Origin: Branchiostoma floridae
Lineage: Eukaryota > Chordata > Leptocardii > Amphioxiformes > Branchiostomatidae
Direction of reading: 5' to 3'
NCBI RefSeq assembly: GCF_000003815.2
Contig: NC_049989.1
Location: 6,706,734-6,770,733 of the forward strand
Length of the DNA: 64,000 nucleotides
In this document: positions 33,234 to 36,400 of the stretch, in pieces
Numbering within the stretch: the stretch's first letter is position 1
How the letters are laid out: each line of letters starts with the position of its first letter
The notes under the pieces: generated by a model
What the model was told of the DNA's origin: nothing
Seen by the model: the letters and a program-made list of their open reading frames with translations, nothing else
Databases searched by the model: none
Position numbers and translations under genes: made by a program

Positions 33234-36200
33234 TCACTGTAAACCTGTGGAGACATGAAATATAAGGGTCAGGATTGAGGTCATTACTAATTGCCATTAC
33301 ACATTTGTAAAAAGTATCAATATAGGCGTTGAGTAAAACACATACGTCCGAACTATAAGATATGAGTATAGGAATGATTTCATCAAAAACAGGAGACCAG
33401 GATCAGTTGTTTATATATCGAACAGCCGGTCCCTTTCCAGGAACGTATAAGTAGTCATTGAGTACTATGCATTCTATGCCCATTATGTTCTACGATTTTA
33501 AACCTTTTAATATATCAGCTTTTTGACATGGCAGAATCAGATTATGATCCAGTACATGAAACAATCAACAGATAAACAATCAACCATTACAATAAAACAA
33601 AACATTTTAAAAATTGGTTCTAAGTACACAACTATCAGTAGGACTTATTACATACCATTTGCCACCTTACACTGCCGGATGGCCTCATTGAAACCCTCAC
33701 AGAGCGAGATGTCACTCTGGGACTGAGCACACTGCAGGAACTGTTGGATCTCCCATCCACAGGGCTGCTGTTGTTGTTGGTTGGGCTGTTGTTGTTGCTG
33801 TTGTGCAGGCTGTTCCTGATAGGTGACATCAGGCTGGGACTGGGAGGAGCCACCACCGCTGAAGGCTCCAGTCACAGCATGGCCAACCACATGCCCCTGG
33901 CAAACAGGAATCATCAGAATGACTTTTCATTTGGCAAACAAGCTGCATGGGAAACTTATTACTTTTTTTATATCATCTTATTAGTTACACAAACACAACC
34001 ACTTAGTTGTATAGCATAAAACACTAAGAATTACCATTTATATGATGCAAGTGATGCTGATACGTTGTTAGACATCAAAAGATACAGATGATAACAGTTA
34101 CTCAACCAAATTTTGCAAAAGGTCAGACATATTGGATAGCATCCACTACCTTTCCTAAGTAATAATAAGTTAGTAGAGAATCAACAGGTAAACTTACAAT
34201 AGCTACACCTCCAGCAGTAGCTGCCATCTGCCCCATCAGGCCTGGGCCCTGGGACACGGGCTGCTGCATCATGGGCTGGGAGGGGGGAGCTGGGGCTGGT
34301 ACATTGCTCCTGTGTGTGGCAGTTATAAAAAAAATACATGTAGATCTATATGTGTGCCATATCACCTATCGTTACATCATCATATACCTAGATGCCAGAT
34401 TTTCTGTTGAAAGAAATCATGTAGGAAAAGTCTGAAAGTTCAATAGCATAAAAATTATCTTTCCACTTCTTAAACTTAAAGCATTTTTGTGTTAAAAGGG
34501 TGGATAAGTGTAAATTTTAGGCATTTTCTGTTGTCCTAGTTATTAAAACGCAAGACAAGTTGTGGCTTTTACGTAACATGATCATCACAACAAAAGGATC
34601 CTTCACCCACCACCCCCATGCTGTAGTGATTTCGTCATTTAATTTCAAAGTTTATCACGTTAGATGCCCGTTTCCACATACAAATTTGCAAGTCTACGAA
34701 AGCTTCACCTTCCGCACTGGAACCGAGTGCTGAAAACAATGGTCGAATCGGCCTCAGCACTCGTTTTCCAGTGCTGAAGAATGTTCAGCACTCGTTTTCC
34801 AGTGCTGATCGGCCTTTCTCCAGTGCTGAAGCTCCCTCAGCACTCGTTTTCCAGTGCTGAAAAGACGGCAGCACTCGTTTTCCAGTGCTGAAAAGACGTT
34901 TTCCAGTGCTGAATGTTCGTCAGCACTCGGCTCCAGTGCTGAACTCGCGGCCCGGGCGGCGACGGGTCAGGTCAAAGGTCACTCAGCACTGGTTACCCAG
35001 TGCTGAAACCGCCGTCAGCACTGGAACCGAGTGCTGATATACAAAAGCTTCGCCTTCCGCACTCGATTTTCCAGTGCTCAGGGGCACTTCAGCACTGGAA
35101 CACCAGTGCTGAGAAATCTTCAGCACAGGAAAACGAGTGCTGACGTCTTTTCAGCACTGGAACGTTCTTCAAACCAGTGCCGAAGTCTTTCGAGCACTGG
35201 AGTATCCTAGTGCTGAGAGCGGTAACGTTACTTGACGTATACTGATTAGAAATAAAGTTAAACTTTTGGTTGTGCTATTCAATTTAATGTGTAACTTGGT
35301 GTATGTATAGAGTATAGATACAAAGTACTGAAAGCGGTACTATATACAGTACTAATAAAGATGATTTTTCAAGTTTATGCAGTTTTAGCTGGTGTGTTAC
35401 GCCGAACGGCGGTTTTGATATAACGTAAGATAGATACAGATGCAAAAAAGCCTGAATTTGTGTTGTTTTGTATAATTGAAATGTATAAGGAATGGATATC
35501 ATTAAAACGGGGTTGCAAACAACTTTATTGTGTCAATTTGTGATAGATATAGCCCTTTTGGGAAAGATTTGGGGGGCCCTGAAAAGGGCCGGGGTGAGAT
35601 GATACCGTGTTGCTGAAGCAAGGAAAGGCCGTGAGTCGATTCATTGAGGGTGTCGGGCCCGAAAGCATCGTCCGTGCCCGCCAACCTGGTGAAAGGGAGG
35701 CACAAGATCAACGGGAAACTTGTGACAGTTTCTAGAGAAGAAGGGGACGCTTGTTTTTCGACCTGGACGAAGAAATGTGCAGTCAACACAACACGTCGTC
35801 TGGACGACATCCTCACACTTACAGACGATGGTGCAGCAAAACAAGCAACTGTCAAACTAGATCAACATGGGAAGGCTTTCTTCGATCTGCAAGTTTCCAG
35901 TGCTGAGAGCGTCAGCACTCGGTTTCCAGTGCTGACGAACATTCAGCACTCGGTTTCCAGTGCTGAAGCCGGCGTCTCCAGTGCTGAGAGCGCGTCAGCA
36001 CTGGTTTTCCAGTGCTGACGAACATTCAGCACTCGGTTTCCAGTGCTGAAGCCATCTTCAGCACTGGTTTCCAGTGCTGAAAAAGGAGGGTGAAGCTTTC
36101 GTAGTTTTGCTACAAATTTGACAGTACTTAACAGCCACGTTACTTAAGAGCTTATGTGGACACTTTGGGAACATGTGGATACAAAAAGAGCATAAAACCC

Positions 36201-36400
36201 CGGTGTTTTATGGGAAAACCATCTGACCCGATTTTAGACGACGCAACGATGCTTCTGGAAAAACTGACCTTCGTCAGGAGACTGTAGAGTACGTACGTAA
36301 AACGACGTAACTAACTTTATCTAGCTTACCTTGGTGGCGCTCTGGCTGGAGCAGGGGGTGAGCTAGTACGGGCCCTGAAACCACCACCACGGCGAGGCAT
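33234..36400 (-). CDS. CHCHD2: CHCHD2/CHCHD10-type twin CX9C mitochondrial protein
   Basis: Exons 36330-36400, 34198-34309, 33656-33896 and 33234-33244 give 144 residues (human CHCHD2 has 151). The protein opens [14 protein letters not shown], a basic Ser/Arg/Pro-rich leader suited to mitochondrial import. A Gly/Ala-rich hydrophobic segment follows ([20 protein letters not shown], about 48-67), then [12 protein letters not shown] and a Gln-rich linker. The C-terminal CHCH domain has two CX9C pairs (Cys 107/117 and 127/137), the substrate of the Mia40/CHCHD4 oxidative import route into the intermembrane space. The last coding exon is only 11 nt and completes NGLQ, matching human NGLA. If intron 3 is retained, the frame ends two residues earlier at ATG-TAA. 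CHCHD2 acts in respiratory-chain and cristae maintenance and as a stress-responsive nuclear co-regulator. One gene may stand for both vertebrate CHCHD2 and CHCHD10. Confidence 0.93.
34717..35215. repeat. Left palindrome array (about 13 full, 2 half units)
   Basis: Successive units share the 8-bp arms TCAGCACT and AGTGCTGA around spacers of about 6-9 nt, either CGTTTTCC or its reverse type GGAACCGA. Two units near the right edge have degenerate arms or longer spacers. Half units consisting only of CCAGTGCTGA occur near 34812 and 34900. Bases outside the arms often still pair. Confidence 0.88.
35575..35590 (-). other. Histone-3'-end-like stem-loop inside the TIR element
   Basis: On the minus strand the sequence reads GGCCCTTTTCAGGGCC: a 6-bp stem and the UUUC loop that fit the consensus stem-loop of replication-dependent histone mRNAs. 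No histone coding sequence is visible upstream on that strand, so it may be coincidence or a remnant of a captured gene tail. Confidence 0.3.
35644..35889 (+). pseudogene. Coding-like fragment within the TIR element, unidentified
   Basis: A frame open from 35632 runs through protein-like sequence (for example [19 protein letters not shown] and GKAFFDL) up to the first right-array palindrome, where it dissolves into array sequence. There is no ATG; the first usable codon is TTG at 35644. It could be a captured host exon or a relic of the element's own gene. I do not recognise the family. Confidence 0.3.
35890..36080. repeat. Right palindrome array (5 full, 2 half units)
   Basis: Units have arms TCAGCACT/AGTGCTGA with spacer CGGTTTCC or GGTTTCC. 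The bases flanking the arms co-vary: GTCAGCACT pairs with AGTGCTGAC and TTCAGCACT with AGTGCTGAA, so stems reach 9-10 bp in both versions. The larger block gacgaacattcagcactcgg occurs twice, showing segmental duplication within the array. Confidence 0.88.

Follow-up and report, generated by a model that had tools for sequence, protein, structure and literature searches.

The first intron of a gene that we take, from its CX9C exon, to be CHCHD2/CHCHD10-like carries a copy of a non-autonomous cut-and-paste DNA transposon family, whose subterminal arrays of short half-sites keep helical phase. We think it likely that this is a young transposon in which the arrays dock a transposase or an accessory protein and, through their phasing, could align the two ends. 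The unusual parts are the helical phasing itself and the fact that the body of the terminal inverted repeat (TIR) has changed between subfamilies while the array has been kept.

A transposon copy in intron 1 of a CHCHD2/10-like gene

The copy occupies positions 34688-36110 of the window (the whole 64,000-nt stretch of lancelet DNA analysed here), a length of 1423 bp on the plus strand with the GCAAGT end taken as left, and its borders are fixed by family copies that end at the same two positions. On either side, at 34679..34687 and 36111..36119, stands the 9-bp target duplication TACAAATTT, its two copies identical. Comparison of the ends, both within the copy and across copies, defined the left TIR as GCAAGTCTACGAAAGCTTCACC (34688..34709, plus strand) and the right TIR as GCAAAACTACGAAAGCTTCACC (36089..36110, minus strand); the repeat extends to 26 bp at 88%, and its outer 22 bp contain two mismatches. 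The left tip reads GCAAGT and the right tip GCAAAA, and CTACGAAAGCTTCACC comes next in each. All 30 of 30 two-ended copies have one GCAAGT and one GCAAAA end, and the two ends are therefore distinct. The host gene lies on the minus strand, with exon 1 at 36330-36400, intron 1 at 34310..36329 and exon 2 at 34198-34309, its exons and splice sites being read from the sequence.

A preliminary description of this DNA had reported a TIR element with subterminal palindromes in CHCHD2 intron 1. That element is real and has a perfect 9-bp duplication, though the extent first given, 34681..36120, had to be corrected at the borders to 34688-36110. The outer repeat CAAATTTG, originally put forward as the TIR, is eight bases that belong mostly to the target duplication: on the left it comprises duplication bases plus the first base of the left end, a G, and on the right duplication bases and the next host base. 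It was mistaken for a TIR because the duplication bases and the neighbouring G make a palindrome.

Inside the copy, 35217..35553 is an interior that genome comparison found in common with many subfamily A copies. An inner duplicate of the end, TACAAAAGCTTCGCCTTCCGCACTCGA, lies at 35040..35066 on the plus strand (89% of 27 bases) and indicates growth by duplication. The 1423-bp element has no long open frame, and its central frame is without a Pfam match; no Rfam match was found anywhere in the window, nor any DNA match to it among phage records. At the far left of the window, positions 1-1193 consist of a 90-bp unit repeated in tandem, 13 copies in all.

Copies, ends and subfamilies in the genome

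The element was searched against the genome (513,431,437 bases in 431 contigs); 589 candidates yielded 312 matches, and scoring was confined to the best 40. Forty places were fetched, and 30 of them had both ends. The 9-bp flanks of these two-ended copies were identical in 23 cases (63% A+T), agreed at 8 of 9 bases in one and had two to six matches in six, and further perfect 9-bp duplications were found at L049, L050, L051, L069, L070 and L071. In the whole genome, exact ends numbered 86 for the GCTTCACC type, 76 for the ACCTC type and 141 for a third type, GCAANNATACAAAAGTAACGG, with 0 matches to the reversed pattern in each case; the looser pattern GCAANNCTACGAAA gave 220 matches versus 34 when reversed. 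Ten further places with the looser pattern, taken from the first 100 listed, were opened, and five had half-site arrays (L082, L083, L085, L086 and L088) and five did not. The genome search that the preliminary description had proposed thus found ends common to many copies with intact duplications.

The left 540 bp are on average 98.0% identical among A copies and 96.8% among B copies, and 82% identical between A and B. Lancelet heterozygosity is given as 3.2-4.2% in PMC12500494, so the family's insertions, that in CHCHD2 among them, may still be polymorphic. The TIR body differs between subfamilies (CTACGAAAGCTTCACC, CTACGAAAACCTCGCC, ATACAAAAGTAACGG), and the GCAA tips, the 9-bp stagger and the AGTGCTGA array are kept. 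A D-type copy at C1:12482795, for example, has another TIR body together with GCAA tips, palindromes and the duplication TGGGGCATT (by eye). Copies can be very short: L071, with the perfect duplication TACATTGCA, is 234 bp made of TIRs and 11 half-sites, and L088, with the duplication GCCTATGTG (by eye), is similarly short. Five further short or C-type copies comprised three with perfect duplications, one with 8 of 9 bases and one with none. When 15 of 19 single ends of the first type were opened (L054-L068), a second end was present only in L058, at 459 bp and with 7 of 9 duplication bases; L068 holds a separate B-type copy with a perfect duplication.

For L037 (C200:31772-33198), a related empty site was found among the fetched loci, one of 31 joined flank pairs to be spanned, and with one 9-bp copy removed its matches are gapless within 15 bp of the junction. 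The other 30 pairs had no spanning match, which means little given the few fetched loci compared. We also noted that the flanks of L037 read by eye as C2H2 zinc-finger coding repeats, and that similar repeats stand beside other copies in L068. Collectively, the shared TIRs, the fixed 9-bp duplication, the empty site and the lack of a transposase of its own identify the family as a non-autonomous cut-and-paste DNA transposon. We found no description of it in the literature on lancelet transposons and MITEs, Mutator, VANDAL/VANC and TNPA; Repbase may catalogue it.

Half-site arrays in helical phase

Allowing for up to one mismatch, the window copy contains 40 occurrences of the 8-bp half-site AGTGCTGA, of which 33 are exact. 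The window as a whole has 35 exact half-sites, and the 33 inside the 1423 bp, with two elsewhere, are a concentration far beyond chance. Sixteen palindromes of the form TCAGCACT-spacer-AGTGCTGA are present when up to one mismatch is allowed in each arm and the spacer is 7-9 bases long. The left subterminal array (34711..35216) has 27 half-sites (at most one mismatch) in both orientations and 11 palindromes, and the right array (35899..36080) has 12 half-sites and five palindromes. Both arrays had been recognized beforehand, with the right number of palindromes on the right and about 13 instead of 11 on the left, and the reversed spacers noted at that time (ggaaaacg versus cgttttcc) are present.

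Across the 30 copies, the usual distance is 15 or 16 bp between inverted neighbours and 21 bp between direct ones (83 of about 146), the latter with further classes at 33 bp (27), 31 bp (13) and 40 bp (13). For distances up to 130 bp in these copies, the best period was 10.4-10.5 bp in all four orientation classes; most inverted neighbours are separated by about 1.5, 2.5 or 4.5 turns of the helix, and direct ones by about 2 or 3. Half-sites in direct repeat that lack a partner also hold the phase (21 bp). Tandem units of 31 and 83 bp occur inside the arrays. Because the copies are related and the arrays grew by duplication, so that steps are not independent, single copies were tested as well, using step classes other than 15, 16 and 31 bp and a null of lengths drawn evenly from 13 to 58. 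The mean phase deviation was 1.19 bp over eight step classes in the window copy (p = 0.003) and 1.00 bp over seven in copy L034 (p = 0.002); off-phase steps were 13 and 33 bp in the former and 18 and 40 bp in the latter. Among listed palindromes of a D-type copy, a first series of steps runs 31, 31, 52, 93, 63 and 106 bp and a second 31, 31, 31, 52, 31, 31 and 32 bp.

Probable protein-binding sites rather than hairpins

The half-site alignment extends inward: position -2 is C in 39 of 40, and position -1 is C or G in 38 of 40. Half-sites are constrained across the subfamilies. Of 222 half-site positions compared, 20 differ between A and B, against 67 of 299 positions elsewhere; 6 of 520 shifted masks gave a contrast as extreme, and the comparison is somewhat biased by picking half-sites for their resemblance to the motif. 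The contrast is weaker within subfamilies (2.6% in half-sites versus 3.1% elsewhere for A, 1.3% versus 2.4% for B). A clear contrast between subfamilies and a weaker one within them fits the view that transposition requires the motif better than the view that the host retains it after insertion.

The preliminary description had seen co-variation in the bases flanking the arms and had taken it to indicate selection or copying as hairpins. We regard it as very improbable that the palindromes act as hairpins or cruciforms, in the manner of fold-back elements, or give CHCHD2 a structured intron. The window copy does have 16 near-perfect short palindromes. In all 16 (15 of 16 in L034) the second inner base pairs across the palindrome, the single feature for which a hairpin too would account. 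Against this, the base adjoining the arm pairs in only 4 of 16 palindromes of the window copy (7 of 16 in L034), and mutated arms are compensated in none of the six palindromes concerned, four from the window copy and two from L034. At flank positions 1 to 5, pairing was found in 6, 6, 2, 0 and 4 of the 16 palindromes of the window copy, compared with expected fractions of 0.36, 0.33, 0.25, 0.21 and 0.25 obtained by matching flanks of different palindromes, and three other copies gave the same picture, about equal to or below mismatched flanks. Flanks in four copies thus pair no more than chance, leaving both the co-variation and the hairpin selection or copying unsupported, and the unpartnered half-sites that hold the 21-bp register likewise speak against hairpins. 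Given the lack of flank co-variation and of compensated arms, the palindromes are predicted to be protein-binding sites and are probably not hairpins. The earlier proposal of transposase sites stands to the extent that the palindromes are probably bound by protein, although no transposase could be linked to them; cleavage within the palindromes, also suggested, was not borne out, as the target duplications abut the TIRs.

It is also conceivable, though unlikely, that the half-sites are read outside the act of transposition, whether by a host factor or by a VANC-type anti-silencing protein. The half-site TTCAGCAC, found throughout 34711-36080, presumably has a likeness to the left half of REST/NRSF, a vertebrate element, which would suit a host factor. 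Such a role is harder to reconcile with arrays that adjoin the TIRs at both ends and with a 234-bp copy that keeps little else. For a VANC-type protein there is a precedent in Arabidopsis VANDAL, which carries tandem short motifs bound by VANC, but VANC targets are described as diverging rapidly (PMC10398659 for both) and the half-sites here are the conserved part. An ordinary satellite or a local duplication without transposition, for which the 31- and 83-bp tandem units might argue, has a negligible chance of being correct; it is contradicted by the defined ends, the 9-bp duplications, the empty site and the dispersal of copies, and was rejected. Nor do the palindromes occur as a free satellite, an outcome the preliminary description had allowed for, since most listed palindrome places adjoin family ends. 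Compared by eye, 8 of 13 palindrome places on C1 up to 20.5 Mb lie beside a listed exact end (with 100 of 2001 strand matches listed); for places in that region that have at least two palindromes, the figure is 7 of 8.

Search for a transposase

The genome contains 27 matches to the MULE transposase domain, several in long open frames (for example L074 1194-3800, L076 960-2729 and L077 1588-2643), as well as 12 matches to KDZ (Kyakuja-Dileera-Zisupton) domains and three of Merlin type. The 27 MULE matches differ from the relevant statement of Dupeyron et al. 2019 (PMC6446971), according to which MULE transposases were undetected in the Florida lancelet. L074 also holds a coding tandem repeat. 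Distances were taken to family ends listed up to C7 for the loose pattern and up to C14 for the D type; among these listed ends the nearest was 19 kb away for the 26 of 27 MULE matches that could be placed, 31 kb for KDZ at seven places (10 of 12 matches, two on C300 being left out) and 336 kb for the one of three Merlin-type matches placed. Five MULE loci that were opened had no half-site array and no family ends, a simple scan of L076 and four others found no duplication with a convincing TIR, and tblastn of five MULE ORFs against the fetched loci gave one weak match (E = 0.045).

Long pairs of ends were found in L049 (4241 bp), L050 (7725 bp), L051 (4452 bp) and L052/L053 (about 11.7 kb), and no DNA transposase was found among the 10 ORFs scanned of 32 listed; L049 carries a reverse-transcriptase ORF. 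We rejected these pairs as the autonomous partner and read them as ordinary copies with later insertions. A Myb/SANT-like domain (PF13837, E = 9.5e-9) was observed at 4405-4803 of L052, in the roughly 10-kb insert of that long copy. The divergent ends L089-L091 were followed for ~3.5 kb, and no transposase was recognized by eye in the ORF list. Five more long pairs, formed by D-type ends, lie at C6:879650-883847, C7:7614968-7624830, C4:14389284-14391632, C6:8784972-8787236 and C11:19361242-19363615. An autonomous relative sharing the ends, which had been suggested as something to look for, was not recognized among the pairs, single ends and MULE loci opened.

Merlin elements make 8-9 bp duplications and have an IS1595-type transposase; membership in KDZ would require that a partner sharing these ends encode a KDZ transposase. 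Mutator/MULE duplications are typically 8-11 bp (PMC6446971). The 9-bp stagger, being within that range, points to MULE without proving it, and we would place the family among the Mutator-like elements with about even confidence.

The central segment

In the genome, searches at both the DNA and the protein level found the segment at 35600..35893 (plus strand) only here and in L010, where a protein-like open frame of 122 aa runs through it. The two copies differ by five substitutions in 371 aligned sites and by indels of 4 and 35 bp. Since L010 has a different target duplication, the segment moved with the element. No relative was found in Pfam, PDB, phages or IMG/VR, and the one NCBIfam match scored 13.3 bits against a cut-off of 792. 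MULE tend to carry host gene fragments; here the segment has an open frame in L010 and no source was found in the genome. Possibly it is what remains of an autonomous gene since lost, or else a fragment that was captured.

Proposed mechanism and significance

In the mechanism we favour, a transposase supplied in trans by a partner would cut at the GCAA ends, and the cut ends would join the target with a 9-bp stagger. The AGTGCTGA arrays would dock this transposase or an accessory DNA-binding protein of the same transposon. Given the phased steps between neighbours, the bound proteins would share a rotational register and could align so as to draw the two ends into one complex; the protein, its binding and its role in joining the ends are our inference. 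More speculatively, and with low probability, the group may be addressed mainly by its phased palindrome array, with a partner transposase perhaps from a superfamily beyond the MULE, KDZ and Merlin models. If so, one binding protein could mobilize ends of different sequence.

The family offers a countable natural model of transposon-end recognition, with dozens of half-sites per copy and copies down to 234 bp, and part of its value is that the TIR changes between subfamilies while the array and its helical register stay. Once the binding protein is identified, the role of phasing in joining ends becomes directly testable. If insertions are polymorphic, the one in CHCHD2 included, their effect on host genes may be measurable.

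Comparison with known systems

CACTA (En/Spm) elements have CACTA tips and a 3-bp duplication, and the GCAA tips and 9-bp duplication found here rule out membership. The fold-back element Galileo, of the P superfamily, has terminal regions rich in internal repeats, as in the present family, but very long TIRs and a 7-bp duplication; membership is ruled out by a TIR of 22-26 bp and a duplication of 9 bp. LanceletTn-2 (PMC5802833), a lancelet MITE compared by description only, is likewise a short non-coding intron element. The family resembles MULE and VANDAL in the size of the duplication (8-11 bp; PMC6446971) and in having arrays of short motifs, which in VANDAL are bound by the element's own protein (PMC10398659). 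It differs from MULE in having no linked MULE transposase, and from VANDAL, as that source describes it, in that VANDAL motifs are tandem and fast-diverging whereas the half-sites here alternate in orientation and are phased and conserved. In CACTA, subterminal repeats are reported to be recognized by the accessory protein TNPA and needed for excision (PMC2613891), and this may be the closest model for how the family works. By analogy, the family would work most like CACTA or VANDAL, with subterminal motifs bound by element-encoded proteins, combined with a Mutator-like stagger.
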